Shown: positions 9,262 through 40,810 of the stretch, piece by piece | Numbering within the stretch: position 1 is the stretch's first letter | How the letters are laid out: each line of letters opens with the position of its first letter | DNA from: Mesorhizobium hawassense | Lineage (GTDB): Bacteria > Pseudomonadota > Alphaproteobacteria > Rhizobiales > Rhizobiaceae | Reading direction: 5' to 3' | Length of the DNA: 64,000 bases | NCBI RefSeq assembly: GCF_003289945.1 | Contig: NZ_QMBP01000003.1 | Location: 496,001 to 560,000 of the forward strand | Made by a program: the position numbers and the translations under genes | Notes under the pieces: generated by a model | The model's database searches: none | Told to the model about the DNA's origin: nothing | Seen by the model: only the letters and a program-made list of their open reading frames with translations

Positions 9262-9324
9262 ATGCCCGGGTCCGATCTCGAATTAGAGCGCCGGCCGTCA
9301 CATCGGTCCCGACGCTTGGCTCGA

Positions 9325-10434
9325 TTACCTCACATCGACCCAGCGCTGTTCCTGGAACGAGCGCGCCATCGCATGCACGGTGCGCTCGATCTCCAGCCCC
9401 TCGTCGAAGTCGATGATGCGGGCCGGGTTGCCGGCGATGCGCATCAGCAGCTCGCGGCATTCGATCATCTTGAGGTCGTTGAAGCCGAGGCCGTGGCCGG
9501 GCGCCGGCAGGAAGGAATCGTAGGGCTTGTGGTGCGGTGCGACCAGGATGGTGCGGTAGCCCTGCTCGGTCGGCCGGTCGGCGGTGAGGTAGAGCTGGAA
9601 CTCGTTCATCCGCTCCTGGTCGTAGAGGATCGAGCCCTTCGAGCCGAAAATCTGGATGGCGATACGGCCCTTGCGGCCCCAGGCCGAGCGGTTGACCAGC
9701 AGCGTGCCGGCCACGCCGTTTTCGAGATGCATCAAGACGCTGGCGATGTCGTAGGTCTCGACGGTGCGGCGGCCGCCGGAAGCGAGTTTGCGGTCGGCAT
9801 AGGGCTTCGCCATGTCGCACATCACCCGGCCGACACGGCCGAACAAAACCTTGATCAGCGACAGCGGATGCACGGCGAAATCGTCGAGCGCGCCATAGCC
9901 GGAAGCCGCCTCGTGCTTCCAGAAGAACAGTGCCTCCGGGTCGGCCATGAAATCCTCGTCCATCTCGATGCGCACGAGGTTGACGTCGCCGATGATCTTC
10001 TCTTCCAGCAGCGCGCCGATGTGGCGGATGGCGGGGTTCTGGATGTAGTTGTAGCCGAGCACCGCGACCTTGCCCGATTGTTTGGCGGCCTTCGCCATCG
10101 CCTCGGCCTCGGCAAAGCTCGGCGCCATCGGCTTCTCGCACCACAGATGCTTGCCGGCTTCGAGGATGGCGATCGCCATTTCGGGATGGAACTGGTTGGG
10201 CGTGGTCAGCGAGACGATTTCGACCTCCGGATCGTTGACCACGGCGCGCCAGTCGCCGGAGGCTTTGGCGAAGCCGAACTCGCCGGCCTTGCGCCTGGCA
10301 AGCTCGTCATTCACCTCGCCCAGGTGCACCAGCCTCGGCTTGTCGACGTCGGGGAAGACGGTGCCCACCGCGTTCCAGGCGATGGCGTGGCACTTGCCCA
10401 TGAAGCCCGTGCCGATGAGGCCCACTCCGACCAT
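9325..10434 (-). CDS. Gfo/Idh/MocA oxidoreductase divergent from iolR (IolY-like)
   Basis: A 369-residue NAD(P)-dependent dehydrogenase with GVGLIGTGFMGKCH at the N-terminus (Rossmann fold), WCEKPM as catalytic lysine region and GYNYIQNP in the substrate domain. It is clearly more distant from the two IdhA-like proteins of the window. A comparable oxidoreductase gene sits divergently to iolR in Sinorhizobium meliloti, where I recall the name iolY; that match rests on position and family, not on a search. A role in inositol or scyllo-inositol metabolism is likely, and it probably shares the iolR control region. Confidence 0.85.
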   Translation of the reverse strand: MVGVGLIGTGFMGKCHAIAWNAVGTVFPDVDKPRLVHLGEVNDELARRKAGEFGFAKASGDWRAVVNDPEVEIVSLTTPNQFHPEMAIAILEAGKHLWCEKPMAPSFAEAEAMAKAAKQSGKVAVLGYNYIQNPAIRHIGALLEEKIIGDVNLVRIEMDEDFMADPEALFFWKHEAASGYGALDDFAVHPLSLIKVLFGRVGRVMCDMAKPYADRKLASGGRRTVETYDIASVLMHLENGVAGTLLVNRSAWGRKGRIAIQIFGSKGSILYDQERMNEFQLYLTADRPTEQGYRTILVAPHHKPYDSFLPAPGHGLGFNDLKMIECRELLMRIAGNPARIIDFDEGLEIERTVHAMARSFQEQRWVDVR

Positions 10435-20332: not shown

Positions 20333-20474
20333 GATGTGCTGATATTCAGGTGAGGCCGGCCTGCAAATGGCGGCTTCCTGCGCTTCCGGTGCTCACGTAC
20401 GAAAAGTACGCTCCGCTCCGGTTCTCGGAAGCCACCACTTTCGGCTCGGCCTGACCTGAATCTCAACACATCTT
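20331..20474. repeat. Long imperfect palindrome between convergent genes
   Basis: The whole 144-bp segment folds on itself: AAGATGTGCTGATATTCAGGT at the left is answered by ACCTGAATCTCAACACATCTT at the right, and the centre is a perfect CGTAC-GAAAA-GTACG hairpin (20396-20410). It fills the space between phnN (plus) and the amino acid ABC ATPase (minus), so it can act as a two-way terminator. The central sequence resembles a repeat widespread in rhizobia. Confidence 0.85.
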
Positions 20475-24007: not shown

Positions 24008-25003
24008 CTATTCCGCGGGCGCGCCGGCGACGTTCTGGCGCGCCGCCTCGACCATGCGGCGCCGGGCGCGGAAGACACCCCATTGCTGGTCGACCAGCAC
24101 GCCGATCAGGATCACGCCGCCCATCACCGCGAAGTTCAGCGAAGACGGGATGCCGAGCAGATTGACGAGGTTCTGCAACTCCTGCAGCAGCACGGTGCCG
24201 AGGATGACGCCGACCAGCGAGCCCTCGCCGCCGCGCAGCGAGAAGCCGCCGAGCACCGCCGCCGCGATGGCATAGAGCTCGTAGAACTGGCCGTGGCTCG
24301 CCGGCGAGATCGAGCGCGTGTACATGGCGAAATAGATCGCCGACAGCGCCGTCAGCACGCCGCAGATGACGTAGGCCGCGATGATCACCCGGCCCGTGCG
24401 GATGCCGGAATATTTCGCCGCTTCCTCGTTCTTGCCGATGGCATAGAGATAGCGGCCGAACACCGAGCGGTGCAGCACCACCCACATGACGATGGCGATG
24501 ATGATCAGCGCGATGAAGCTGTTCGGCACGCCGTATGAACGGCCGGCCGTCAGGAATTCCAGGTCCGGGAAATTCTGACCGAAGGCGAAGCCCGCCGTGC
24601 CGTCGGCGGTGTAGAAGCGCGCCACGCCGCGATAGATGAGCAGGCCGCAGAGCGTCACCACGAAGGGCTGCAATTTCAGCCGCGTGATCAGCCAGCCATG
24701 CACGAAGCCGATGATGGCGCCGAGCAGGATGATCACCACGAAGGCCAGCGGCCAGTCGAGCTCACGTACCGCGATGAAGTCGATGAACAGCGTGCCGAGC
24801 AGCGCGACCAGCGAGCCGACCGACAGCTCGATGCCGCCGGTGATGATGACGAAGGCCTGGCCGATGGAAAGGATGCCGAACAGGCCAATCAGGTTGGAGG
24901 TGTTGGCGAGGTTGATCGGCAAAAGGAAGCGCGGGTTGATGGCCGTCACCACCGCGCCGACCACCAGAATCAGGATCAGCAGGCCGAGATCTTTCTTGCT
25001 CAT
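24008..25003 (-). CDS. Rbs-type sugar ABC permease
   Basis: A 331-residue CUT2 permease (RbsC-like) with eight to ten membrane segments. The family signature GGIELSVGSLVAL and the region GEGSLVGVILGTVLLQELQNLVNLLGIP are present. It overlaps the ATPase gene by 4 bp (ATGA). Substrate unknown; ribose-class pentoses, deoxy sugars or polyols are possible. Confidence 0.92.
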   Translation of the reverse strand: MSKKDLGLLILILVVGAVVTAINPRFLLPINLANTSNLIGLFGILSIGQAFVIITGGIELSVGSLVALLGTLFIDFIAVRELDWPLAFVVIILLGAIIGFVHGWLITRLKLQPFVVTLCGLLIYRGVARFYTADGTAGFAFGQNFPDLEFLTAGRSYGVPNSFIALIIIAIVMWVVLHRSVFGRYLYAIGKNEEAAKYSGIRTGRVIIAAYVICGVLTALSAIYFAMYTRSISPASHGQFYELYAIAAAVLGGFSLRGGEGSLVGVILGTVLLQELQNLVNLLGIPSSLNFAVMGGVILIGVLVDQQWGVFRARRRMVEAARQNVAGAPAE

Positions 25004-26565
25004 TGCGCTTCTCCCGCCGCTTGCAGCAATTTCGGCTTCTTGCCGACCGCCAGCAGGAGCACGTTCTCCTGGCTGAAGTCGTCCTTGTCGAGGATGCCGG
25101 AGATCTGCCCCTCATGCATGACCGCGATGCGGTCCGAGACGCCGATCACCTCTTCCATGTCGCTGGAGATCATCAGCACCGCGACGCCGGCGTCGGCCAG
25201 CGCGCGCATCAGCCCGTAGATTTCGGCCTTGGCGCCGATGTCGATGCCGCGCGTCGGCTCGTCCAGGATCATCACCTTCGGGTTCATTGCCAGCCATTTG
25301 GCCAGAACCACCTTCTGCTGGTTGCCGCCCGACAGCGTGCCGGTGCGGGTCAGGACCGACGGCGCCTTGATGCCGAGGTTCTTCTTCTGCTTTTCGGCCG
25401 TCGCCAATTCCGCGTTGGTCGAGACCAGCGAGCGCCTGGCATGCGCCGGCAGATTGGGCAGCGATATGTTCTGGGCGATCGACAGATCTAGCAATATGCC
25501 GGTCAGCTTGCGGTCTTCCGGCACAAGGAAGATGCCGTTCGCCACAGCATCGGCGGCCGATCCGACATCGAGCGGCTTGCCGTCGAGCGTGACATTGCCT
25601 GCCAAACGCTCGTCGATGCCGAACAACACGCGCGCGAGCTCGGTGCGGCCGGAGCCGACAAGGCCGGCAAGGCCCAGGATCTCGCCGCGCCGAAGCTCCA
25701 AGCTGACCGGGCGGTCGGGATAGGTGCTGGTGCGGATCGCTTGCGCCGATAGCGCGACCGGGCCCGGTGCCCGCGTGGCCTCGCCAGCCTTCTCGCGCTC
25801 CTTCAGCATGCGGCCGATCATCAGCCTGACCATCTCGTCGTGATTGATCTGGGCCTTCGGCAGCGTGCCGGCCAGCGTGCCGTCGCGCAGCACCACGACA
25901 CGGTCGGCGACGCGCTCGATCTCGTGCAGCCGGTGCGAGATGAAGATGACGCTGATGCCTTCCGCCTTCAGCCCCTTGATGACGTCGAGCAGCTTTTCCG
26001 TCTCGGCGATCGGCAGGCTGGAGGTCGGCTCGTCGAGGATCACCAAGCGGGCCTTGATCGACAGCGCCTTGGCGATCTCGACCATCTGCTGCTGGGCGAG
26101 CGACAGCGAGGCGACCGGCGCGTCGGCCGAGAAATTGGCCCCGACGCGCTTCAGGAGCGGCGCCACCATCTCGCGCAATTTGGCGCGATCGACCAGCTTC
26201 AGCGGCCCGGCGCGCAGTGGCTCGCGGCCGAAGAAGACGTTGGCGGCGACATCGAGGTTTTCGAACAGGTTGAGTTCCTGGTGCACGAAGGCGATGCCGG
26301 AACCGATGCTTTGTTCGACGGTCAGCCCGTCATGCGCCGCGCCATCGACGGTGACGGCGCCGCTGTCGGGCCGCGTCACGCCGCCGAGGATCTTCATCAG
26401 CGTCGATTTGCCGGCGCCGTTTTCGCCGACCAGGCCGATGACCTCGCCGGGTCGTACCTCCATCGAAAACCTGTCCAGCGCCACAACACCCGGATAGGTC
26501 TTGCGCACGGCCTCAAGGCTCAGGAACGGAGCGGTGTTTGGGTGAGTGGTGTCGGTAGGGATCAT
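25000..26565 (-). CDS. Rbs-type sugar ABC ATPase with two nucleotide-binding domains
   Basis: A 521-residue RbsA-like protein with two ATPase halves. The first has Walker A GENGAGKST, signature LSLAQQQM and DEPTSSL; the second has signature SGGNQQK and DEPTRGID. As in other CUT2 proteins, the second half lacks a full Walker A. ATG 26565 was taken as start because the ABC domain begins about 12 residues later; the longer frame up to 26661 runs through the spacer after the binding-protein gene. GTG 26568 is also possible. Confidence 0.9.
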   Translation of the reverse strand: MIPTDTTHPNTAPFLSLEAVRKTYPGVVALDRFSMEVRPGEVIGLVGENGAGKSTLMKILGGVTRPDSGAVTVDGAAHDGLTVEQSIGSGIAFVHQELNLFENLDVAANVFFGREPLRAGPLKLVDRAKLREMVAPLLKRVGANFSADAPVASLSLAQQQMVEIAKALSIKARLVILDEPTSSLPIAETEKLLDVIKGLKAEGISVIFISHRLHEIERVADRVVVLRDGTLAGTLPKAQINHDEMVRLMIGRMLKEREKAGEATRAPGPVALSAQAIRTSTYPDRPVSLELRRGEILGLAGLVGSGRTELARVLFGIDERLAGNVTLDGKPLDVGSAADAVANGIFLVPEDRKLTGILLDLSIAQNISLPNLPAHARRSLVSTNAELATAEKQKKNLGIKAPSVLTRTGTLSGGNQQKVVLAKWLAMNPKVMILDEPTRGIDIGAKAEIYGLMRALADAGVAVLMISSDMEEVIGVSDRIAVMHEGQISGILDKDDFSQENVLLLAVGKKPKLLQAAGEAQ

Positions 26566-26672
26566 CACGCCTGAACAGCAGCCGGTGGGCCACAGACTGA
26601 CGGGCCTTGGCGGCTCCGTCAATACGAACGCCGGCTCAAGGAGACCCTTGAGCCGGCGCAACGGTTTTGGAC

Positions 26673-27635
26673 TTATTTGCCCGCCATCGCCTTGAGGTTG
26701 GCGGCGTAGGCGTCGACGTCATCCTTGCCGATGATCTTGGTCGGGATGATGATCAAATTGCCGGCCGGGATGCCCGACTTGTCGCCCTTGAGGTAGGCGG
26801 CCATCAGCTTCATGCCCTGATAGGCCCATTCGAAGGGCTGCTGCACCACGGTCGCGGCGACGGTGCCTTCCTTGACGCCGCCCAGCGTGATCGGATCGTC
26901 GTCGAAGCCGACGACGGTGATCTGGCCGAGCTTGCCGGCGTCGCGCAGCGCTTCATAGATGCGCGGCGTGTTGTAGGAATAGAAGCCGACCATGCAGGTG
27001 ATGTCGGGGCTGGCGACCAGCGCGTCCTCGACGTTCTTCTTGGCGCGCGCCTGGTCGATATCGTCGCCACGCACGTCGACGAGCTCGATCTTGCTGCCGG
27101 CGAGGCCGTCCTTCATGCCCTGGATGCGTTCCTTGGCGTTGTCGGCGCCGAGCAGGCCGACGAAACCCAGGCACTTGCCGCCGTTCGGCATCGCCTTCTT
27201 GGCGATCTCGGCCGCCTGCTTGCCGGCATCGACATTGGACGAGCCGATATAGGCGACGCGCTTGGTCTGCGGCGCATCCGAGTCGGTGGTGAACAACGCG
27301 GTTTCCGACGCGATCTTGTTCAGCCCGTCTGTCGAGGTCTTGGGATCGACGGCCGAAACCATGATGCCCTTGACGCCCGCCGTCACCAGATCGTCCATCA
27401 AGCGCTGCTGGATGGCGACCGAGGACTGTTCCGGATATTTGAGCTCGAGATTGTAGTCGGGCAGTTCGCCCTGCGCCTTCTTGACGCCGGCTTCCGCCGC
27501 CTTCCAGAAGTCTGACGCACCGTTGACGACGAAGGCCAGCGTCGGCTTGTCGTCCGCGCGGGCAATCGCCGTGGCCGTAAGCCCAATGAGCAGGGCCGCC
27601 GCGGCGACAGATGCGTTACGGATTACTGATTTCAT
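26673..27635 (-). CDS. Rbs-type sugar ABC periplasmic binding protein
   Basis: A 320-residue family 4 (RbsB-like) binding protein. It has a signal peptide (AAAALLIGLTATAIARADD), then LAFVVNGASDFWKAAEAGVKKAQ, DDLVTAGVKGIMVSAVDP and VVGFDDDP, which line the sugar cleft. First gene of the minus-strand operon with the ATPase and permease downstream. The divergent LacI gene at 28246 is the likely regulator. Confidence 0.92.
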   Translation of the reverse strand: MKSVIRNASVAAAALLIGLTATAIARADDKPTLAFVVNGASDFWKAAEAGVKKAQGELPDYNLELKYPEQSSVAIQQRLMDDLVTAGVKGIMVSAVDPKTSTDGLNKIASETALFTTDSDAPQTKRVAYIGSSNVDAGKQAAEIAKKAMPNGGKCLGFVGLLGADNAKERIQGMKDGLAGSKIELVDVRGDDIDQARAKKNVEDALVASPDITCMVGFYSYNTPRIYEALRDAGKLGQITVVGFDDDPITLGGVKEGTVAATVVQQPFEWAYQGMKLMAAYLKGDKSGIPAGNLIIIPTKIIGKDDVDAYAANLKAMAGK

Positions 27636-28245
27636 AGTTCATCCTCCCTTGTAGAACTCGTCGCTGATGTCTCGGCTGCGGCCTGGATAACCCCTCCTCC
27701 TCAAGGGTCCGGCGAAGGTCCGCCGACTCAAGAACGGTGCCGATCCGGGCCGCTACCCGAGACACTAGACACTGATGTGGCGTTCGTAAATAGTCCGATT
27801 TGTCTGACATTTTCGTGAAATGGATGTAGGCCGATCCGGCGATGCAGCCGGGTGTCGAACGGGCATCCTTCGCACTTGCCGGCGCCGATCCGACGTCTGG
27901 ATGGTTGCGGCGAGTTGACAGTAGAACGCTTACGACTATTAGTAAATAGTATTAGTTATGAGCCGAGTGCCGCGACTTCGAAGCGGAGGAGACGCCAGTC
28001 GAAAACGCGCTGGGAGTGAGGCGAACGAGCGGCGGCAAGGCTTGCAGCCGCATGGAAACCGCGGAATTGTCAGCACTGCTGACCTTGTCTGACCGGTTTT
28101 GCCGGGATGCCAGGCGGCTGGTGATTTGCATGCCGCGCTTGCTAATATATATTAGCTGAGCGCACTTCGATAAACGGACCGGCCTCGACCATCTTGCCGT
28201 TGCCGCCGCCTTTGCTTTAGAGCCGGCGGGGTTTGGGAAACGACC
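27636..28245. other. 610-bp divergent control region between the Rbs-type operon and lacI-type gene
   Basis: Contains AT-rich islands unlike the surrounding DNA: a CATTT-TCGTG-AAATG palindrome (27808-27822), the segment ACTATTAGTAAATAGTATTAGT (27934-27955) following a TTGACA at 27915-27920, and the perfect palindrome at 28141-28156. These are candidate operators and promoters. I see no supported gene in it. Confidence 0.6.
28141..28156. promoter_or_regulatory. Perfect 16-bp AT-rich palindrome upstream of the LacI-type gene
   Basis: GCTAATATATATTAGC is fully palindromic and lies 90 bp before the ATG of the regulator gene. It may be an autoregulatory operator or a promoter core; it lacks the central CG often seen in LacI-family operators. 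Confidence 0.4.
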
Positions 28246-29361
28246 ATGAGCGAACCGACGGAACTGCGCGATCCTCCCGGGGCTTCCAGGCGCCGCAAGC
28301 CAGCCGCCAAGCCCAAGGGACGTGTCACCATGACCGACATTGCGCGCGCCGCCGGCTGCTCGCAGGCGACGGTCTCCTTCGTGCTCAACAATTCGCCGGG
28401 TATCCGGCTGTCGCAGCAGACGCGCGACCGCGTCATCGAGGCGGCGCGGTCGCTGGGCTACTCGCCACCGGTCTTCTCGGCGCTGCGGCCGGCGGTGACG
28501 CCGTTCGAAGGCCTGGATGGCGTCATCGGCTTCGCGGTCGACCAGCTCGCCACCAGCCCCGAGGCGGTGGTCGCGATCGAGGGCGCGCGGCAGGCCTCGT
28601 GGAACGCCGGCAACGTGCTTCTGGTGGCGCAGACCATGGGCGATTCGGTGATGGAGCCGCGCGCCATCCAGGCGCTGACCAGACGCGGCATCTCGGCGCT
28701 GATCTACATGACCATCTTCACGCGCGAGATCACCGCGCCCGATTTCCTCTACAGCCTCGAGATCCCTGTCATCCTTCTCAATTGCTACACCGCCGACTAC
28801 GCCTTCCCGGCCGTGGTGCCGTCCGAGATCGCCGGCGGCCAGAGCGCCACCAGGCATCTGATCGGCCACGGCCATCGCCGCATCGCCACCATCACCGGCG
28901 AGCCGTGGATGCAGGCGGCGCAGGACCGGCTGAAGGGCTATCGCCGCGCTTTGGCCACCGCCGACATCCCGTTCGATCCGGAGCTGGTGGTCGAGGGCGA
29001 TTGGTCGGCCAGCGCCGGCTACGCCGCAACCGTCAAGCTGCTTGCGTTGAAAGACCGCCCAACCGCCATCTTCTGCCAGAACGACCGCACCGCGATCGGC
29101 TGCTACGAGGCGCTCAAGGAAGCGGGGCTGCATATCCCGCAGGACATCTCGGTGGTCGGCTATGACGACGAGGAGATCGCCCGCCACCTCTTCCCGCCGC
29201 TCACCACGTCGATCCTGCCGCATCTGGCGATGGGCCAATGGGCGATCGAGCAGCTGGAGACGCCGCCAACACCCGGCCGCGGCCGCTATCCCATCACCAA
29301 GCTGGAGTGCCCGCTGGTGGAGCGGGAAAGCGTGGCGCGCGTTCGGGACAAATCAGGATGA
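28246..29361 (+). CDS. LacI-family transcriptional regulator
   Basis: A 371-residue regulator. The helix-turn-helix MTDIARAAGCSQATVSFVLNN lies at residues 29-49 after a basic N-terminal extension (ASRRRKPAAKPKG), followed by the hinge helix and a periplasmic-binding-like sensor domain (about 90-355: AIFCQNDRTAIGCYEAL, ISVVGYDDEEIARHLFPPLTT). ATG 28330 would give the more usual LacI length, so the upstream start is uncertain. Divergent from the Rbs-type sugar importer, which it probably controls. Confidence 0.88.
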   Translation: MSEPTELRDPPGASRRRKPAAKPKGRVTMTDIARAAGCSQATVSFVLNNSPGIRLSQQTRDRVIEAARSLGYSPPVFSALRPAVTPFEGLDGVIGFAVDQLATSPEAVVAIEGARQASWNAGNVLLVAQTMGDSVMEPRAIQALTRRGISALIYMTIFTREITAPDFLYSLEIPVILLNCYTADYAFPAVVPSEIAGGQSATRHLIGHGHRRIATITGEPWMQAAQDRLKGYRRALATADIPFDPELVVEGDWSASAGYAATVKLLALKDRPTAIFCQNDRTAIGCYEALKEAGLHIPQDISVVGYDDEEIARHLFPPLTTSILPHLAMGQWAIEQLETPPTPGRGRYPITKLECPLVERESVARVRDKSG

Positions 29362-30300: not shown

Positions 30301-31056
30301 TTACCCGCCGACCATCAGCTTGACGACCTCGTCGTGGTTGGTCTCGGCGATCTTGCGTTCGCCGGCCTGGACGCCGCGCCTCAGCACCACGATGCGGTCC
30401 GACACGGCGAAGATGTCCTGCAGATTGTGCGAGATGAAGATCACGCCCCGCCCCTGCGCCTTGAGCTGGTGGATGAGCGAGATCACCTTGCGCTGCTCGG
30501 GCACGCCGAGGGCCGCGGTCGGTTCGTCCATGATCAGGATCTGGGCGTCCCAGTAGACGGCGCGGCCGATGGCGACGGCCTGGCGCTGGCCACCGGAGAA
30601 GTTGCTGACCGGGGCCTCCAGCCGGCTGACATGGAAGTCGAGCCGGCTCATCGTTTCCTTGGCCGCCGCCGCCATCCGCTTGCGATCCAGCACCGGCAGG
30701 AAGCCGAAGGCTCTGCGCATCGGCTCGCGGCCGAGGAAGATGTTGGCGCCGATCGACAGATTGTCGGCAAGCGCGAGGTCCTGGTAGATCGTCTCGATAC
30801 CCTTCTCGCGCGCCTCCTGCGGCGTGGCGAAGCTCACCGGCTGGCCCCTGAGCAGGATTTCGCCGGCCGTCGGCTGGTAGACCCCGGATATCGCCTTGAT
30901 CAGTGTCGTCTTGCCGGCGCCATTGTCGCCGGCCAGCGCGACCACCTCGCCCGGGCGCACCGCCATGGAGAAGTCGCTCAGCGCGCGCACGGCGCCGAAA
31001 TGCTTGGAAAGGTTCCTGACCTCGAGGAGAGGCGCGGTCTGCTCGGCGTTAGTCAT
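30301..31056 (-). CDS. Sugar ABC importer, single-domain ATPase (SorC-linked system)
   Basis: A 251-residue ATPase with one nucleotide-binding domain: Walker A GDNGAGKTT, Q-loop ETIYQDLALADNLSIGANIFLGRE, signature FSGGQRQA, Walker B ILIMDEPTAALG, H-loop FISHN. It resembles the first half of RbsA-type proteins, so two copies should assemble per transporter. ATG 31056 overlaps the permease stop by 8 bp; upstream frame is permease DNA. Part of a binding protein-permease-ATPase operon transcribed from about 33400. Confidence 0.9.
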   Translation of the reverse strand: MTNAEQTAPLLEVRNLSKHFGAVRALSDFSMAVRPGEVVALAGDNGAGKTTLIKAISGVYQPTAGEILLRGQPVSFATPQEAREKGIETIYQDLALADNLSIGANIFLGREPMRRAFGFLPVLDRKRMAAAAKETMSRLDFHVSRLEAPVSNFSGGQRQAVAIGRAVYWDAQILIMDEPTAALGVPEQRKVISLIHQLKAQGRGVIFISHNLQDIFAVSDRIVVLRRGVQAGERKIAETNHDEVVKLMVGG

Positions 31057-32110
31057 CCTGGCGGGCTCCGCTGAACCGGCGCTGAGCCTGGTCGATGAGG
31101 ACGGAAATGATGATGACGACGCCGACGGCGATGAACTGCCAGAACGGCTCGACATTGACGAAGACCAGCCCGTATTGGATGACCGCGATCACCAGCGCGC
31201 CGGCCACCGTGCCGAGGATGGTGCCGGAACCGCCGAACAGGCTGGCGCCGCCGATGACCACGGCCGCGACGCTGTCGAGCAGCAGCGGCTCGCCGGCCTG
31301 GGCCGCGCCGGCGGTGAAGCGCGCGGCATAGAGCGCGCCGCCGAGGCCCGCGCACATCGCCGACAGCACATAGAGGCGCAAGATGTGATCCTTGATGTCG
31401 ATGCCGGCCCGGCGCGCCGCCTGGATGTTGGCGCCGATGGCGTAATTGTGCTGGCCGAACCGGGTCTGGCTCAGCACATAATGCATCACGATGACGAAGA
31501 TCGCGGTGATGATGACGAGATAGGGCACGCCGTAGAGCTTGCCGTTGCCGAGCACCGCGAACCAGGAATTCTGCACCGGCACCGTGGTGCCGCCGGCCAT
31601 CAGGTAGGCGGCGCCGCGCGCCACGCCGAACATGCCGAGCGTGCCGATGAAGGGCGGCACCTTGAGGCGTGAGATCAACAGGCCGTTGATGACGCCGGGC
31701 ACGCCGGCGACGATCACGGCCGCAAGGATGCCGGCAAGCATGGCCAGCGGCAAGGGAATGGCGGCGCCCGCAATGTTGGTGGCGTGCGCGGCGATGACGG
31801 CGGCGAGCCCCATGATGAAGCCGAGCGACAGATCGATGCCGCCCGAAATGATGACGAAGGTCTGCCCGGTCGCCAAAAGCAGCGGCGCCACGGCGAAGAT
31901 GGCGATGGACTGCACGTTGAACGGGTTGAGCACGAAGGTGGCGCCGAAGGCGAAGCGCGACCAGACCTCGAAGCAGATGACCAGGCCGGCAAGGAAAAGC
32001 CAGGCGCGCCCTTCGGCGATCCTGCGGACCAGGCTCTTGGCCGTATCGCTGTGGTCGGCCTGAGGGGCAACGTGCTTTTCGGCTTGCTGGGCTGGTGATG
32101 TCGAGGTCAT
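31049..32110 (-). CDS. Sugar ABC importer, CUT2 permease (SorC-linked system)
   Basis: A 353-residue RbsC-like permease with about ten membrane segments; GQTFVIISGGIDLSLGFIMGL is the family signature. ATG 32110 has CGGAG upstream and gives a normal cytoplasmic N-terminus; the frame continues to 32170 without better start. The sequence is close in style to the inositol permease at 44930 but distinct. Confidence 0.91.
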   Translation of the reverse strand: MTSTSPAQQAEKHVAPQADHSDTAKSLVRRIAEGRAWLFLAGLVICFEVWSRFAFGATFVLNPFNVQSIAIFAVAPLLLATGQTFVIISGGIDLSLGFIMGLAAVIAAHATNIAGAAIPLPLAMLAGILAAVIVAGVPGVINGLLISRLKVPPFIGTLGMFGVARGAAYLMAGGTTVPVQNSWFAVLGNGKLYGVPYLVIITAIFVIVMHYVLSQTRFGQHNYAIGANIQAARRAGIDIKDHILRLYVLSAMCAGLGGALYAARFTAGAAQAGEPLLLDSVAAVVIGGASLFGGSGTILGTVAGALVIAVIQYGLVFVNVEPFWQFIAVGVVIIISVLIDQAQRRFSGARQDD

Positions 32111-32210
32111 GAACGCTCCGCCGTAGGCTTCCTTCGAACGGGATCCGGTTGTCGCCGGGATCCGACGCAAGCCTCCTCCCGGCGGGCCGGGAGGAGGCCA
32201 GGCGCGCTGG

Positions 32211-33188
32211 TTACTCGGAGTAAAGATACTTCGAGATGTTCGGGTCGGCGATGTTGGACTTGTCCATGATCGTGAAGCCGGTGCCGATCGAGACCGGGAT
32301 CGAATGTCCGGTCAGGTGGGCATAGGCCGAAACGACGCCATAATAGCCGATCTCGGCCGGGTGCTGGGCGATCGCCACGTCGACCAGCCCGGTGTTGATG
32401 TTGTCGACGATGCTGGTCGGAGCGTCGAAGGCGACCACCTTGACAGTGCCCGTCTGCCCGGCCTGCTTGACGCCGTTGGCAGCGCCCAGCGCCGAGAACA
32501 GGTTGGCGCCGAAGACGCCGACGAGATCGGGATTGCGCGCGAACACCGCCTGCAGCTGCGAAGCCGCCTTGTTGGCGTCGTCGTCGTTGAACTGGGTTTC
32601 CAGCACGGTGATGCCGGTGTGCTTGGCCATCTCCTTCTTGAAGCCTTCCTCGCGCTGGTCGGTGGTCGAGATGCCGGGCTTGACGTTCGAGACATAGACC
32701 TTGCCCTTGTCGCCAATGGACTTGGCAAGCGCCCGCGCCGCGATCTCGCCGCCGAGCACGTTGTCGGAGGCGATGTAGGCGAGCGGGAAGTCGGCATCGC
32801 CGGCGCCGGTCTGGTAGGCGCCGGTGCCGATGAAGGTGTCGACGGTGATCACCGGGATGCCGGCGTCATTGGCCTTGCGCAGCGGCTCGACCAACTGGAC
32901 CTTGTCGGTCGGCGCGATCAGGATCGCGTCCGGCTTCTTGGCGATGACGGCGTCGAGCACCGGAACCTGCGTCACCGGGTTGAAGTCGGGCGCGCCCTGG
33001 AAGACCAGGTTCACGCCGAGCGCGTCGGCCGCCGCCTGCGCGCCCTTGCGCATGGTAATGTAGAAGCCGTCGGTGGTCAGGCCCGGAATGAGCGCGATGG
33101 TGTATTTCTTATCCTCGGCGTGGGCGGGCGCGATCAGCGCCGATGCCGAAACGGCGAGCACCGCAAGCGCGGCAACGATCTTCCTCAT
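32211..33188 (-). CDS. Sugar ABC importer, periplasmic binding protein (SorC-linked system)
   Basis: A 325-residue family 4 binding protein. Signal peptide residues 1-24 (ALAVLAVSASALIAPAHAED). Ligand-lobe motifs include LIPGLTTDGFYITMRKGAQ, DAILIAPTDKVQLVEPLRKANDAGIPVITVDTF and VKVVAFDAPTSIVDNI. First gene of the operon. A promoter-like element about 205 bp upstream is nearly identical to one before the aldolase gene at 34790, so the imported sugar is probably the substrate of that aldolase and kinase. Confidence 0.92.
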   Translation of the reverse strand: MRKIVAALAVLAVSASALIAPAHAEDKKYTIALIPGLTTDGFYITMRKGAQAAADALGVNLVFQGAPDFNPVTQVPVLDAVIAKKPDAILIAPTDKVQLVEPLRKANDAGIPVITVDTFIGTGAYQTGAGDADFPLAYIASDNVLGGEIAARALAKSIGDKGKVYVSNVKPGISTTDQREEGFKKEMAKHTGITVLETQFNDDDANKAASQLQAVFARNPDLVGVFGANLFSALGAANGVKQAGQTGTVKVVAFDAPTSIVDNINTGLVDVAIAQHPAEIGYYGVVSAYAHLTGHSIPVSIGTGFTIMDKSNIADPNISKYLYSE

Positions 33189-33620
33189 GAAACTCCTCCT
33201 CGAGATGTTGGCAGATGTACGGTTGACACTGGGTAGTCTGCTTGCCGCTGCGGGCGGCTTTCCTCCTCAGCGCCCAGCCGTTGGGTCAGCCGGCGGAACC
33301 CGGCCATTTCGATGTCGGCGGTTTCGTTGCCTGCCTCCGCAGGGATCGAAAAACCGCGCTACCCGGCACGCTTCCGCACCAAGCCGGCAACGTTGTAACA
33401 CTTTGCTGAAATAAATTGCAAGCGGATCCTGGACGGCCCGAACCGCCACTGCTTTCCGATCGGACAAGCATCGTGTGCTCCGCTCAGCCCCGCATCGGCG
33501 ACTATCGCGCCAAGCCGTCGCCGGCACAACGGGAGATTTCCGCGGCTGCAACGCCTATCCGGCAGCGCGAGAAAAGTGCGGAGCGAGTTCCGTTTGGAAC
33601 CAGGCGAGAATATGGGAGGC
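33189..33620. other. 432-bp region: leader and promoter of the sugar ABC operon
   Basis: From 33392 to 33189 lies a leader of about 200 nt for the minus-strand ABC operon, with GAGGAGGAG as ribosome binding site next to the ATG. The promoter-like element is 33393-33421. Between 33423 and the end of the SorC gene at 33621 I see nothing that I can name. Confidence 0.6.
33393..33421 (-). promoter_or_regulatory. SorC-linked promoter/operator element, copy A (ABC operon)
   Basis: On the minus strand TTGCAA and TTACAA are 17 bp apart, like -35 and -10 elements, with TTTATTTCAGCAAAGTG between them. It matches 26 of 29 bases with copy B at 34572-34600, spacer included, and in the same orientation to its downstream gene. 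Confidence 0.7.
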
Positions 33621-34529
33621 TCAACCGCCCTGGTTGAGCCGCTCCAGGATGGCCTGCGCCGTCTTGGTGTCCGTGACAAGCGCGCTGATCAGCCTGGCGC
33701 GGGCCGCGCCGATGATGGCCTTGGCCTTCTCCGGCCCCGAAGCGACGCCGATCACCAGCGGAACGGCACGGAGCTGGTCGGGCGACATGGCGATCATCCG
33801 GCTCTCGCCTTCCCAGGAGATGAGGGCGCCGTCGGCATCGAAATAATGCCGGAGCACGTCACCAGCGGCCTGCACCAGGGCCTGTTCGCTCAGCGTCGCG
33901 GCGCTTGCCTCCGGCGCATTGATTGCATGCGGCAGGCCGACGCCGACGATTGCGATGTCGGTCCGGCCCCAGAGGGACACGGCGTCATGTATGGCCGCGT
34001 CGGCAAGAAAGACTTCGCGCAATTCGCTGGACGGCAGGTAGGGCGCGTGGATGAAATGCGGCGTTCCGCCGAACTCCTCGGCCGCCAGCCGCACGAACTC
34101 GTTGATCTGGAAATGCGGCGCCTGCTGCTGCATGCCGCCGGTGGCGGCAACCGTCAGCACGCCTGGAAAGCGCGGCAGGCCGGCGCGGATCACTTCGCGG
34201 ATGGCGCGGCCCCAGCCGATGGCCACCACAGAACCGGCCGAAAGTTCCGCCTTCTTGAGCAACCGGCCCAGCGGCGCCGCAAGCGCCGTCAGCACGCCTG
34301 CCGCCGGCGTCTCGACGATGGCTGCGTCGCGCAAACCCAGCCTCTCGACCAACTGCGAGGTGAGGGCCTCCGGCGTGACGATATCGAGCACCTCGATGCG
34401 CACGATGCCCTCGGCCCGCGCGCGCTGCAGAAGCCGCGAAATGGTGGCGGTGGAGACGCCAAGCCGGCGCGCGATATCGACCTGCGACATCTCCGCCTCG
34501 TAATGCAGCTTGGCGACCGTGTGCAGCAT
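33621..34529 (-). CDS. SorC/DeoR-family sugar-responsive regulator
   Basis: A regulator of about 302 residues. The N-terminal helix-turn-helix is HYEAEMSQVDIARRLGVSTATISRLLQRA (about 9-37), and the rest is a SorC-type effector domain with a phosphosugar-isomerase-like fold (SVVAIGWGRAIREVI, ATGGMQQQ, VGVGLPHA, GVASGPEKAKAIIGAARARL). ATG 34529 is the only ATG, but related proteins have several more residues before the helix-turn-helix and the frame is open upstream, so the start is unsure. It lies between the two arms of the sugar system it probably controls. Confidence 0.88.
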   Translation of the reverse strand: MLHTVAKLHYEAEMSQVDIARRLGVSTATISRLLQRARAEGIVRIEVLDIVTPEALTSQLVERLGLRDAAIVETPAAGVLTALAAPLGRLLKKAELSAGSVVAIGWGRAIREVIRAGLPRFPGVLTVAATGGMQQQAPHFQINEFVRLAAEEFGGTPHFIHAPYLPSSELREVFLADAAIHDAVSLWGRTDIAIVGVGLPHAINAPEASAATLSEQALVQAAGDVLRHYFDADGALISWEGESRMIAMSPDQLRAVPLVIGVASGPEKAKAIIGAARARLISALVTDTKTAQAILERLNQGG

Positions 34530-34571
34530 CGTGCGTGATGCGGTCGCGTCCTGTATGGGAGGTACAGACAG

Positions 34572-34600
34572 CTTGCAATTCCTTTCAGCAATGTGTTACA
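34572..34600 (+). promoter_or_regulatory. SorC-linked promoter/operator element, copy B (aldolase-kinase arm)
   Basis: TTGCAA (34574-34579), a 17-bp spacer and TTACAG (34597-34602), with TTTCAGCAATGTG conserved against copy A. It points towards the aldolase gene at 34790, leaving a leader of about 185 nt. Confidence 0.7.
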
Positions 34601-34789
34601 GGCCTGTCGACCGATGGGAGTTATCGCCCAAATTCGGCAAACCCGCAACTTGGGGGCGCTCCTTCGGCACGCTGTTCCGCCCGTCATGGCAGGCGCGTCG
34701 GAACAGTGAAGCTTGCGGCCTCAAGACAGGCAGAAGGCACCTCCAAGGATAGCGCGTCCCGATGCGTAGGATGCGCCGAGATCGGACCG

Positions 34790-35701
34790 ATGACCATGAC
34801 CAAGATGACCACCGCGGAACTGCGCGGCTACCAGCAGATTTGCGGCAAGGACGGGGCCATGATGGCCATTGCCTGCGACCAGCGCGGCGGCATGCGCACG
34901 CTGCTGGCGTCGGATCCGGCGGAGCAGGCCGCGATCACCAACGACATGCTCGGCGACACCAAATCCGACATCACCCGATATCTCGCCAGCGAGGCGTCCT
35001 GCGTGCTGCTCGATCCGCTCTGCGCGGTGCCGCGTGTCGTCGATGAAGGCGTGCTCAACCGCGACACGGCACTGCTCATCGGCCTCGACGCCTCGGGCTA
35101 CGACGTCTCGCCGGAAGGCTACCGCCTGTCGCGCCTGGTGCCCGGCATCGACGCGCGCCGCGTGCGCGAGCTGGGCGGCACCGGCGGCAAGATCATGGTG
35201 TATCTGAGGGCCGATCGGCCCGAAGCGAACGAGCACAACATCGCCATCCTCAAGCAATGCATTGCCGACTTCGCCAAGGAGGATCTTCTGCTAATCGTCG
35301 AGTTCCTGACCTACCAACTCGAACGCGAAAGCCCCGAGGACTATGCCGCGAAGATCCCGTCGCTGGTCGAGGAGGGCACGCGAATTTCCCTGGACTGCGG
35401 CGCCAAGGTGCTGAAGCTGCCCTATCCCGGAACGCCCGAAGCCTGCGCCAGCATCACCAGGATTGCCGGCGACGTGCCTTGGGCGGTGCTGTCGGCCGGA
35501 GTCAACCATGCGACCTTCCTCGGCCAGGTCGAGATCGCCATGAAGAACGGCGCCTCGGGCGTGATCGCCGGCCGGTCGCTGTGGAAGGATTGCATCTCGC
35601 TCGACCGCGACGTCCAGCGCGAGAAGCTCAAGACAGTCGCGGTTTCCCGTTTGCGGGAAATCCAGGCGGTCATCGGCAACTATCGCCGCAAAGCTGCCTG
35701 A
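34790..35701 (+). CDS. LacD/YihT-like class I aldolase
   Basis: A 303-residue TIM-barrel aldolase of the tagatose-1,6-bisphosphate aldolase (LacD) and sulfofructose-1-phosphate aldolase (YihT) family. Diagnostic segments are MAIACDQRGGMR at the N-terminus, LLIVEFLTYQ, AKVLKLPYPG (the lysine is the likely Schiff base) and WAVLSAGVNHATF followed by GVIAGRSLWKD. It should cleave a ketose bisphosphate to triose phosphates. Three close ATG codons (34790, 34796, 34805) are possible; the first is used. A strong hairpin separates it from the double-kinase gene. Which sugar it serves is not visible. Confidence 0.85.
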   Translation: MTMTKMTTAELRGYQQICGKDGAMMAIACDQRGGMRTLLASDPAEQAAITNDMLGDTKSDITRYLASEASCVLLDPLCAVPRVVDEGVLNRDTALLIGLDASGYDVSPEGYRLSRLVPGIDARRVRELGGTGGKIMVYLRADRPEANEHNIAILKQCIADFAKEDLLLIVEFLTYQLERESPEDYAAKIPSLVEEGTRISLDCGAKVLKLPYPGTPEACASITRIAGDVPWAVLSAGVNHATFLGQVEIAMKNGASGVIAGRSLWKDCISLDRDVQREKLKTVAVSRLREIQAVIGNYRRKAA

Positions 35702-35708
35702 GGCATGT

Positions 35709-35744
35709 TGATCTTCAGCTCAGGCAAGCCTGAGCTGAAGATCA
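35709..35744. terminator. Perfect 17-bp inverted repeat between aldolase and kinase genes
   Basis: TGATCTTCAGCTCAGGC (35709-35725) is followed after AA by its exact reverse complement (35728-35744). There is no T-run, so it may be an attenuator or RNA-processing/stability site that sets the ratio of aldolase to kinase, rather than a full terminator. Confidence 0.65.
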
Positions 35745-35772
35745 GGTCGGCGCCTAGACAGTACGGGACGTC

Positions 35773-37209
35773 ATGCCACACAAATCGATGGCCATAGGGA
35801 TCGATATCGGCGGCACCAATCTGCGGGCCGCGCTGATCTCGCACTCCGGTGAAATCCTTCGTCGCGTCTCCGAGAAGAGCGCGCCCGATCCGGAGCTGGT
35901 GCTCGGCCGCATCGCCGACATGGTGCATCGGCTCGACGGACCGCAGGTCGCGGCCATCGGCGTCGGCGTTCCCGGACGTGTCGATGCGGAAAATCGCGCG
36001 GTGCTTTCCGGCGGCTATGTCGATCTTGCCTCGGTTGCCCTGGCGCACCGGCTGGAAAGCATGGCCGGCCGGCCCGTCGTCATCGACAATGACTGCAACA
36101 TGGCACTGGTCGCCGAAATGGCGCTGGGCGCCGCCTCCGGCCAAGCCAATGTGGTGATGTTCACCATCGGCACCGGCATCGGCGGCGCGGTGGCGGAAGG
36201 GCGGCGCATCGTGCGCGGCAAGGCGACGGCCGGCCAGCTCGGCCATATCGGCGTCGAGCTCGACGGCGAGGTCTGCAAATGCGGCCGGCGCGGCTGCGTC
36301 GAAACCGTGAGCTCGGGCACCGCGCTCGGCGGTCACATCGCCCGTGCCGGCCTCGGTCCGGACGTCTCGGTCGACCAGCTCTTTGCCCGCGGCGCCGCCG
36401 GCGATGCGACGGCGCGCGGCATATTGGACGCCTGGGCGCGGCCGCTGCGCGCGGCGATCGACACGGCGGTCGCCATGTTCAATCCGGAGCTGGTGCTGCT
36501 CGGCGGCGGCCTCGGCGAGGCCGCGCACAGAGCGCTTGCCGATCTGCCGGCGCTGGCGCCCTGGTATCAGGCGGCGGTGCAGCCGGCGAAGCTCGGCGAC
36601 GACGCAGGCGTCATCGGCGCCGGCCTGCAGGCGCTCGCGTCGGTGGTTTCCCAGGCTTCGGCCCGGCCGGCCGGCGGCCGGCGCGCGGTGCTGGTCAACG
36701 GCATTCCGGCCTCCGGCAAGAGTACCGTCGCGCGCGGCATTTCCGAACGCATGGGCTGGCCGCTGCTGGCGCTCGACACCATCAAGAACCCGTTCCTCGA
36801 AGCGCTGGGCGGCGCGGACCGCGAATTCAACCGCACGCTCGGCCGCGCCAGCTACGCGGCCATCTGGTTGGTGGTCGGCGAAGCGCCCGCGGGCGCCACA
36901 TTCGTCGTCGATGCCTGGTTCGGCTTCCAGCCACGCGCGCTGCTGGAAGATCACCTGGGCCACGCCGGCGTTGGGCAGACCGCCGAAATCTGGTGCCATG
37001 CGCCGGGCGAGGTGCTGGCCGAACGCTACCGCGCCCGCCTCGACCAGCGCCCCGCCGGCCATCCCGGCGCCACCTACATTCCAGAGCTGGTCGAACTGGC
37101 CAAGCGCGCGGAGCCGCTCCGGCGCGGCCCGCTGTTCGACGTCGACACCACCAAGCCGATCGATTTCGACGCCATCAGCCAATGGCTGCGTGAAGTGATG
37201 CACGGCTAG
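35773..37209 (+). CDS. ROK-family sugar kinase fused to a P-loop kinase domain
   Basis: A 478-residue fusion. Residues 1-295 are a complete ROK kinase: phosphate-binding GIDIGGTN (8-15), catalytic Asp in VVIDNDCNMA (about 105), GTGIGGAV, and the zinc motif CKCGRRGCVE (about 168). Residues 300-478 are a separate P-loop NTPase: Walker A GIPASGKST (about 310-318), LDTIKNPF, FVVDAWFG (Walker B-like) and a RYRARLDQRP lid. The second half resembles gluconate-kinase-like and AAA_33 kinases. With the LacD-like aldolase next door, the two halves could add two phosphates to one imported sugar; this is inference. The P-loop half might instead be a regulatory NTPase. Confidence 0.88.
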   Translation: MPHKSMAIGIDIGGTNLRAALISHSGEILRRVSEKSAPDPELVLGRIADMVHRLDGPQVAAIGVGVPGRVDAENRAVLSGGYVDLASVALAHRLESMAGRPVVIDNDCNMALVAEMALGAASGQANVVMFTIGTGIGGAVAEGRRIVRGKATAGQLGHIGVELDGEVCKCGRRGCVETVSSGTALGGHIARAGLGPDVSVDQLFARGAAGDATARGILDAWARPLRAAIDTAVAMFNPELVLLGGGLGEAAHRALADLPALAPWYQAAVQPAKLGDDAGVIGAGLQALASVVSQASARPAGGRRAVLVNGIPASGKSTVARGISERMGWPLLALDTIKNPFLEALGGADREFNRTLGRASYAAIWLVVGEAPAGATFVVDAWFGFQPRALLEDHLGHAGVGQTAEIWCHAPGEVLAERYRARLDQRPAGHPGATYIPELVELAKRAEPLRRGPLFDVDTTKPIDFDAISQWLREVMHG

Positions 37210-39652: not shown

Positions 39653-40744
39653 TCAGGCCGCGCCCTGCCGGCTGGCGAGCATCTCGCGCTTCACCGACCG
39701 GCGCCATTCGACGGCGCCGGCGAGGCCGTGCAGCACCGTTTCGGTGGTCGCCCAGTCGATGCAGGCGTCGGTGATGCTCTGGCCGTAGGTGAGCGGCTTG
39801 CCGGGCACCACATCCTGCCGGCCGGCGACGAGATTGCTCTCGATCATGACGCCGATGATGCGCTCGTCGCCTGCGGCCACCTGCCCGGCCACGTCGGCCG
39901 CGACCTTAGGCTGGTTCTCCGGCTTCTTGGCGCTGTTGGCGTGGCTGACATCGATCATCAGCCGCGGCGCGACGCCGATGCGGCCGAGTTCGCCGGCAGC
40001 CGCGTCGACGCTTGCGGCATCATAATTCGGCGTGATGCCGCCGCGCAGGATGACGTGGCAATCCTCATTGCCGGTGGTCGCAGCGATTGCGCTGCGGCCG
40101 CCCTTGGTCACCGCCATGAAATGATGCGGCTGGGCGGCAGACTTCACTGCCTCGCCGGCGATCCTGAGATTGCCGTCGGTGCCGTTCTTGAAGCCGACCG
40201 GACAGGACAGCCCCGAGGCCAGCTCGCGATGGATCTGGCTTTCGGTGGTGCGCGCGCCGATGGCGCCCCAGGCGACGAGGTCGGCAATGTATTGCGGCGT
40301 CGTCATGTCGAGGAACTCGGTCGCCGCCGGCAGGCCGAGATTGTTGACGGCCGACAGCACGTTGCGCGCCATGCGCAAGCCCTTGTCGATGTTGAAGCTG
40401 CCGTCGAGATCGGGATCGTTGATGAGACCCTTCCAGCCGACCGTGGTGCGCGGCTTCTCAAAATAGACGCGCATGACGATCTCGAGCCGGTCGGCCAGGG
40501 CCTCGCGCAGCGCCGCCAGACGGCTGGCGTAGTCCACGGCGGCGACCGGATCGTGAATGGAACAAGGGCCGACGATGACGACCAGTCGATCGTCGGCCCC
40601 CGTCAGGATCGAATGGATGGCGTTGCGTGAGGCGGCAACGGTGCGCGTCGCCGTGAGCGAGCGCGGTATCTCGCGCATCACCTCTTCCGGCGTGGTCAGT
40701 ACCTTGAGTTCCTTGACCCGAAGGTCGTCTGTGGTGGTCAACAC
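39653..40744 (-). CDS. 3-deoxy-7-phosphoheptulonate (DAHP) synthase, class I
   Basis: A 363-residue AroF/AroG/AroH-type enzyme that condenses phosphoenolpyruvate and erythrose 4-phosphate, the first step of aromatic biosynthesis. Key motifs: IVGPCSIHDP, FEKPRTTVGWKG (binding loop), ATEFLDMTTPQY, GARTTESQIHR, GFKNGTDG, DVSHANSAKKPENQ and GVMIESNLV. Start GTG 40744 has AGGAG upstream. The frame remains open to a TTG at 40786, but that codon lies in the T-run of the attenuator terminator. Expression is probably controlled by the leader-peptide attenuator at 40785-40913. Which allosteric inhibitor it responds to cannot be told. Confidence 0.92.
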   Translation of the reverse strand: MLTTTDDLRVKELKVLTTPEEVMREIPRSLTATRTVAASRNAIHSILTGADDRLVVIVGPCSIHDPVAAVDYASRLAALREALADRLEIVMRVYFEKPRTTVGWKGLINDPDLDGSFNIDKGLRMARNVLSAVNNLGLPAATEFLDMTTPQYIADLVAWGAIGARTTESQIHRELASGLSCPVGFKNGTDGNLRIAGEAVKSAAQPHHFMAVTKGGRSAIAATTGNEDCHVILRGGITPNYDAASVDAAAGELGRIGVAPRLMIDVSHANSAKKPENQPKVAADVAGQVAAGDERIIGVMIESNLVAGRQDVVPGKPLTYGQSITDACIDWATTETVLHGLAGAVEWRRSVKREMLASRQGAA

Positions 40745-40784
40745 GGCTTTCTGCTCCTGGTTAGGAGACCTGCCGGCTTGAAAC

Positions 40785-40810
40785 AAAAAAGCCGCCAGGT
40801 CTGGCGGCTT
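40785..40810 (-). terminator. Attenuator terminator of the DAHP synthase leader
   Basis: On the minus strand AAGCCGCCAG pairs with CTGGCGGCTT (40810-40789), followed by a run of T. Its 5' arm GCCGCCAG is also exactly complementary to CTGGCGGC in codons 18-20 of the leader peptide gene (40862-40855), so the two pairings exclude each other. Confidence 0.85.

Follow-up and report, generated by a model that had tools for sequence, protein, structure and literature searches.

In a 64,000-nucleotide stretch of the Mesorhizobium hawassense genome (contig NZ_QMBP01000003.1, positions 496,001 to 560,000; hereafter the window), positions 30301-37209 hold a sugar locus in which genes for an ATP-binding cassette (ABC) importer and a SorC-type regulator stand together with those for a class I aldolase and for a protein that joins a ROK kinase to a P-loop kinase. 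We give an even chance to the reading that this locus serves the uptake and breakdown of a plant ketose, the best candidate being D-manno-heptulose, by way of two phosphorylations and an aldol cleavage. The importer would take up the ketose, the ROK half of the fusion would convert D-manno-heptulose to its 7-phosphate, and the P-loop half would add a phosphate to give the 1,7-bisphosphate, from which aldol cleavage would yield dihydroxyacetone phosphate (DHAP) and erythrose 4-phosphate. Each catalytic step, the order of the phosphorylations and the identity of the sugar are predictions.

The six genes named in the initial annotation of this stretch are all present, on the strands that it gave and with clear family matches. 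The reverse strand carries the single-domain importer ATPase of the ribose/CUT2 type (30301-31056; PF00005, 114.5 bits), the permease (31049-32110; PF02653, 124.4 bits), whose gene overlaps that of the ATPase by 8 bases, the periplasmic sugar-binding protein (32211-33188; PF13407, 194.4 bits) and the SorC/DeoR-type regulator with a sugar-phosphate-type effector domain (33621-34529; PF04198, 158 bits). Divergent from these genes, on the forward strand, lie the aldolase of the LacD/YihT kind (34805-35701; PF01791, 68.6 bits, curated cut-off 23.8) and the 478-residue kinase fusion (35773-37209), composed of the ROK sugar-kinase half (residues 1-298; 35773-36666) and the P-loop kinase half (residues 301-478; 36673-37206). 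The position of the ATPase fits the ABC-SorC-aldolase-kinase order that recurs in many relatives.

The arrangement of aldolase, ROK kinase and P-loop kinase is conserved beyond chance. The comparison covered 74 alphaproteobacterial loci from 73 genomes (one genome, G979, gave two), 55 of which were selected by the aldolase alone and 19 (L082-L100) by a search with the fusion. Both kinases stand beside the aldolase in all 74 loci, and neither was detected at an E-value of 1e-8 in ten loci around distant aldolases that are 26-31% identical. A SorC-type gene is present in 66 of the 74 loci (in at least one of them, L168, only a 26% match). In 57 loci the binding protein shares 60% identity or more with that of PDB entry 5dkv; nine loci have a different binding protein and eight have none in the fetched stretch. 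The aldolases form a clearly delimited group: a relative of at least 64% identity is present in 24 of the 297 genomes of the family search, and other long matches reach at most 36% and short fragments up to 43%. A named scan of 84,980 species yielded 268 relatives, of which the best 80 were examined; these include Rhizobium, Agrobacterium, Aureimonas, Kaistia, Mesorhizobium, Labrys, Tabrizicola, Cypionkella and several Enterobacterales, and they overlap in species with the other genomes, so that they are not an independent set. ROK and P-loop kinases are found together in 65 of these best 80 (61 fused, 4 separate), 14 are without ROK, and one stretch (L289) ends before the kinases.

With regard to the genomic setting of these relatives, the aldolase at 60-80% identity is found on 25 plasmid records, and on an Agrobacterium rubi plasmid (L231) IS66 and integrase genes are close to the SorC-aldolase-fusion unit, and the sugar importer in the stretch is of the UgpC type instead of the ribose type. 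The binding-protein gene of another locus (L086) is split into two frames (9179-9922 and 8949-9203), which may reflect an error in sequencing or a damaged gene.

The fusion of the two kinases, already read from the window in the initial annotation, is real: it occurs at full length in 20 of the 61 genomes of the genus, its own included, and is neither a one-off nor an assembly error. A search with the fusion protein scored 7996 candidates and returned 2676 relatives at an E-value of 0.001 or better; the 120 relatives listed all span at least 98% of the fusion, and the named ones are nearly all from Mesorhizobium. The ROK half is matched by PF00480 over residues 8-284 (176 bits, cut-off 22.9) and has both the catalytic aspartate (D107) and the zinc motif CxC..GC, with D107, Q155, G157, H158, C168, C170, C175 and E177 invariant in 75 of 75 sequences. 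The sugar-binding motif of ROK kinases, ExGH, has a glutamate, which is here replaced by a glutamine at position 155 in all 75 sequences; among the other ROK proteins of the same genome, five of seven were found by a motif search, four with glutamate and one with lysine. The P-loop half is matched by PF13671 (AAA_33) over residues 306-426 (33.2 bits, cut-off 27), and its Walker A motif, PAxGKS, is invariant in 23 sequences; the P-loop kinases of two enterobacterial loci score 26.0 and 26.1 with this model, just below its cut-off. The Pfam matches of the fusion at an E-value of 0.001 do not include the adenosine 5'-phosphosulfate (APS) kinase family, and the 50 fold matches listed contain no entry named as an APS kinase.

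Across the 74 alphaproteobacterial loci, the ROK and P-loop kinases share one frame in 40 and are encoded by separate neighbouring genes in 34. Sixteen of the 34 separate pairs were inspected, and with the start codons chosen by script, the two genes overlap by 4 bases in 11 and are 4-7 bases apart in 5. The earlier proposal that a single polypeptide carries out both phosphorylations agrees with the fused loci; the single polypeptide is nevertheless not essential, because the kinases are separate adjacent genes in the other loci. The retained motifs and the occurrence as separate genes suggest that both halves are real kinases.

The best evidence for the order of steps proposed in the initial annotation comes from loci in which the ABC importer and the ROK kinase are exchanged for a phosphotransferase system (PTS). 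In a phylum-wide sample, two genomes of another class contained the aldolase, and the family of one of them, placed in Enterobacterales by named copies, has a close aldolase in 24 of 246 genomes. Twenty-two loci were fetched from this family (those of G1179 and G1240 are not among them, and the count excludes a 72-residue fragment in G1178), and all 22 combine the P-loop kinase and the aldolase with PTS components IIA, IIB and IIC. None of the 22 has a ROK partner, the one ROK gene seen being unrelated and 6 kb off. In two scanned loci the IIC component scores 490 and 483 bits with an ascorbate-PTS model, above its cut-off of 380; the best match of IIA is an ascorbate IIA model, below the cut-off of that model. 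The SorC regulator and the operator motif described below are retained in 13 of the 22 loci, and the one regulator compared (L185) is 62% identical to that of the window. A PTS delivers a phosphorylated sugar, and thus it appears to replace the ROK step; the P-loop kinase would then most likely be responsible for the second phosphorylation. The exchange, with the operator the same in 13 loci, amounts to a natural experiment on kinase order, and it supports in outline the earlier claim of two phosphorylations followed by aldol cleavage, encoded as one unit for a ketose. Among the named loci without ROK, two lie on short contigs, one with no IIB in view (L306) and one with no PTS in view (L310).

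The enterobacterial loci also contain a small protein beside the PTS genes, which is of a kind of about 101 amino acids in 13 of 13 loci (L185, L208-L219) and of another kind of about 90 amino acids in 9 of 9 (L186, L220-L227). A HAD-type hydrolase gene lies 3' of the aldolase gene in seven of the nine PTS loci without SorC (L220, L222-L227).

With regard to the aldolase, an alignment of 11 sequences shows D25, Q26, R27, K129, E166, K204, S230 and R257 to be common to this protein, LacD and YihT. We take K204 to be the Schiff-base lysine, and the DQR triplet with the glutamate, serine and arginine presumably makes up the active-site set. The protein is 27% identical to Carnobacterium LacD and 24% to YihT, and it scores 69 bits with the LacD equivalog model TIGR01232, the cut-off of which is 432.2. 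The Gram-positive tagatose 6-phosphate pathway (LacABCD) similarly relies on a class I aldolase of the LacD type that cleaves a ketose bisphosphate; it differs from the window locus in its LacAB isomerase and in its second kinase, the PfkB-like LacC, where the window has a P-loop kinase. Neither a LacAB isomerase nor a PfkB-type second kinase was found among the nine scanned proteins of the locus and its borders. The presence of YihT among the solved relatives of the aldolase also raises the prospect of a branch resembling sulfoglycolysis, in which a sulfo-ketose would be phosphorylated once and then cleaved. The sulfo-Embden-Meyerhof-Parnas pathway (YihSTUV) shares with the locus the aldolase superfamily and the sequence of kinase and then aldolase, but it employs a single kinase, of the PfkB type, together with an isomerase and a reductase, whereas the locus has two kinases. 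The nine scanned proteins include no isomerase and no sulfolactaldehyde reductase, and the binding protein falls in the Avi_5339 sugar group; such a branch is therefore highly improbable.

The regulator has matches to helix-turn-helix families in residues 2-56, followed by the PF04198 effector domain, and among proteins of solved structure it is closest to the sorbitol operon regulator, DeoR and LsrR. A 28-base motif, spotted by eye, occurs twice in the window as a SorC-operator-like site, once before the importer operon at 33394-33421 (TGTAACACTTTGCTGAAATAAATTGCAA) and once, on the other strand, in the interval between the SorC and aldolase genes at 34573-34600. It was absent from 100 shuffles of the window, a comparison in which the pattern was itself derived from the two sites. 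A wider test relied on a looser 27-base pattern with 20 fixed positions and up to 5 mismatches. Every locus with divergent SorC and aldolase genes has this pattern between the two: all 20 of the Mesorhizobium type, all 29 other alphaproteobacterial ones and all 13 enterobacterial ones (62 of 62). The pattern occurs six times elsewhere within these loci, and in the overlapping named set the interval has it in 66 of 66 cases. No match was found in twenty shuffled stretches or in ten unrelated loci comprising 160,010 bases, and the enterobacterial loci without SorC have a weak motif in two of nine cases. Upstream of the binding-protein gene, the motif is found in all 19 Mesorhizobium-type loci tested, in 12 of 25 other alphaproteobacterial loci and in 26 of 62 named loci. 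SorC probably binds the motif and may sense a sugar phosphate, and the importer operon and the aldolase-kinase unit would form a single regulon, as the shared operator-like motif suggests.

A SorC-type regulator and a related importer family are also found in the Lsr system for autoinducer-2 (AI-2), which has an FGGY-type kinase, LsrK. A system of this kind was considered for the window and rejected, since the binding protein scores 134.9 bits with RbsB and 65.3 with LsrB, and is thus nearer to RbsB. The kinase of the locus is not of the FGGY type.

Several observations weigh against the proposed pathway, some of which bear on the second phosphorylation and its regulation and others on the sugar. 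None of the close relatives of the P-loop half has been characterised, the solved structure 2rhm being described as a "putative kinase". Nine of the 22 enterobacterial loci have no SorC, and among the alphaproteobacterial loci that are not of the Mesorhizobium type and are without divergent SorC and aldolase genes, the operator-like site is present in 11 of 25 and missing from 14. Furthermore, a PfkA-type kinase is encoded in 10 of the 22 enterobacterial loci, namely all nine without SorC, where it heads the PTS operon (L220-L227, L186), and one of the other 13 (L213); in the overlapping named set it is present in 12 of the 14 loci without ROK. This kinase may make the bisphosphate, which would leave the P-loop kinase redundant or with another task. 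One such task would follow if the sugar carried a single phosphate at cleavage and the P-loop half phosphorylated a product, be it dihydroxyacetone, glyceraldehyde or erythrose. The arrival of a monophosphate in the PTS loci would be compatible with a kinase that acts after the aldolase, as would the PfkA-type kinase in the same ten loci. Conversely, the aldolase retains the residues common to LacD and YihT, whose substrates have an anion at both ends, and the kinase fusion suggests consecutive steps, which makes single-phosphate cleavage improbable in our assessment.

As to the identity of the sugar, the binding protein is 80.4% identical over 301 residues to the protein of PDB entry 5dkv (phmmer E-value 3.2e-163), which is titled as Avi_5339 of Agrobacterium vitis; a predicted model of the window protein was poor (pLDDT 58.5) and served only to find structure titles. 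Three A. vitis genomes hold a 98-99% identical protein in a locus of the same gene order, and the 5dkv binding protein hence belongs to this locus type in A. vitis. The ligand in 5dkv is presumably D-tagatose, which tells against a heptulose. D-manno-heptulose matches D-tagatose in configuration at C3 to C5 and is one carbon longer, so that both sugars could be served by a single binding protein and a single type of aldolase. In most cases ROK kinases place the phosphate on the exocyclic CH2OH group of a pyranose; manno-heptulopyranose would have this group at C7 and tagatopyranose lacks it, a consideration that would favour the heptulose. The only binding report found is that Avi_5339 binds mannoheptulose, an observation quoted in PMC5507952 as unpublished, a status that lessens its weight. 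If that report holds, the substrate panel of the initial annotation (tagatose, fructose, sorbose and psicose, with a 1,6-bisphosphate) may be the wrong one, as mannoheptulose would lead to a 1,7-bisphosphate.

If the sugar were D-tagatose instead, it would be handled by the same proteins in a similar manner, with the ROK half forming the 6-phosphate, the P-loop half the 1,6-bisphosphate and the aldolase DHAP and glyceraldehyde 3-phosphate. The aldolase is of the tagatose-bisphosphate aldolase kind, and the presumed 5dkv ligand would agree with this sugar; the reported binding of mannoheptulose by Avi_5339 disagrees with it. The genes of a second tagatose route also keep company with the locus: of the 54 alphaproteobacterial loci outside Mesorhizobium, 16 have a TagK-like and 15 a GatZ-like gene within the fetched stretch, and 42 of 43 genomes with the locus carry a GatZ-family gene (the genomes tested being those of L059-L100 and the window's own, without those of 32 further alphaproteobacterial loci). 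The one TagK/GatZ pair scanned (L064) scores below the curated cut-offs. Within Mesorhizobium, GatZ is found in 20 of 20 genomes with the locus and in 28 of 41 without it (Fisher p 0.006, uncorrected for kinship). GatZ is described in PMC11907403 as a C4 epimerase of tagatose 6-phosphate and fructose 6-phosphate. The TagK-GatZ route of rhizobia and agrobacteria, which is often in the same genome or next door and may share the importer, differs from the window locus in that it runs through one kinase and an epimerase to fructose 6-phosphate, with no aldolase of this kind. As tagatose would already be dealt with by this monophosphate route where the two occur in one genome, there would be little need of another route for it, and mannoheptulose is favoured for this reason. 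The GatZ counts can also be read as a link to tagatose, and they lend mannoheptulose some preference, short of proof. We regard tagatose as a possible but rather unlikely substrate.

Relatives of this second route are also found elsewhere in the window's own genome (L115 8933-15995, contig C17), where TagK-like (40%) and GatZ (47%) relatives are accompanied by a LacI regulator that is 55% identical to one near the locus in other genera. By eye, two dehydrogenase-like genes lie between the TagK and GatZ relatives, as in a galactitol/tagatose locus.

The initial annotation knew of no described pathway with this architecture, a claim that has to be withdrawn, since such a gene set was predicted in 2017 as a mannoheptulose utilization locus in Rhodobacteraceae bin08 (PMC5507952). 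The set described there comprises an ABC importer, a COG3684 aldolase, a ROK kinase (COG1940) and a second small kinase, and it resembles the window locus in its Avi_5339-like binding protein, its aldolase, its ROK and second small kinases and the steps proposed for them. It differs in that the two kinases of the window form one polypeptide, and its second kinase is filed as COG0529 (APS kinase), whereas the Pfam match in the window is to AAA_33. The SorC regulator, the operator and the PTS form go beyond the passages of PMC5507952 on the mannoheptulose locus. The pathway idea itself is not new. In comparison with those passages, the additions are that the two kinases are fused, how the fusion is distributed, the operator motif, the association with the tagatose route, and the PTS form. 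No description of the fusion or of the PTS form was recognised in the literature searched, in searches that were not aimed at the PTS form and that left subscription papers largely outside.

A more detailed version of the proposal, which we advance tentatively and with somewhat less than even confidence, is that one polypeptide acts as a complete heptulose bis-kinase, with a ROK half altered from Glu to Gln at the sugar site and a P-loop half that founds a new family of sugar-phosphate 1-kinases, and that plant-associated enterobacteria rewired the importer and the first kinase to a PTS, one branch keeping the regulator and the operator. If true, the locus would represent a catabolic route for seven-carbon plant sugars, it would account for the use of a rare plant ketose by many rhizobia, agrobacteria and enterobacteria that live with plants, and it would provide a substrate class for a P-loop kinase subfamily without a function. 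It would also correct the automatic labels "tagatose-bisphosphate aldolase", "ROK family protein" and "glucokinase", which conceal a two-kinase enzyme.

Around the locus, a second ribose-type importer (ATPase and binding protein) and a LacI/RbsR-like regulator adjoin it at 25000-29361 of the window. In other genomes, a recurring set of genes is found near the locus (for instance L060 11669-16035), which encodes a Gfo/Idh/MocA dehydrogenase, an isomerase/epimerase, an alpha/beta hydrolase, a protein resembling ribulose-phosphate-3-epimerase (Rpe) and a second ROK protein; relatives of four of its members lie together in the window's own genome, away from the locus (L116 14990-18001). These neighbours were considered as missing steps and dropped, as relatives of Rpe, the epimerase and the hydrolase occur in 12 of 54 loci and do not adjoin the window locus. 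A gene at 39653-40786, 2.4 kb past the fusion, was recognised by eye as a synthase of 3-deoxy-D-arabino-heptulosonate 7-phosphate (DAHP), a user of erythrose 4-phosphate; its role as an outlet for that product was likewise dropped, since among the 52 mapped loci it is seen only in L082.

Finally, the interval between the aldolase and the fusion contains a perfect 16-base inverted repeat (35710-35743), with a related copy near 20341-20464 of the window. It appears to be what is left of a longer intergenic repeat, which occupies the same place in L082-L085. A hairpin acting as an attenuator was rejected, given that a longer related repeat lies elsewhere in the window and that L082-L085 alone of the 20 Mesorhizobium-type loci show it; a mobile intergenic repeat is the likelier explanation.

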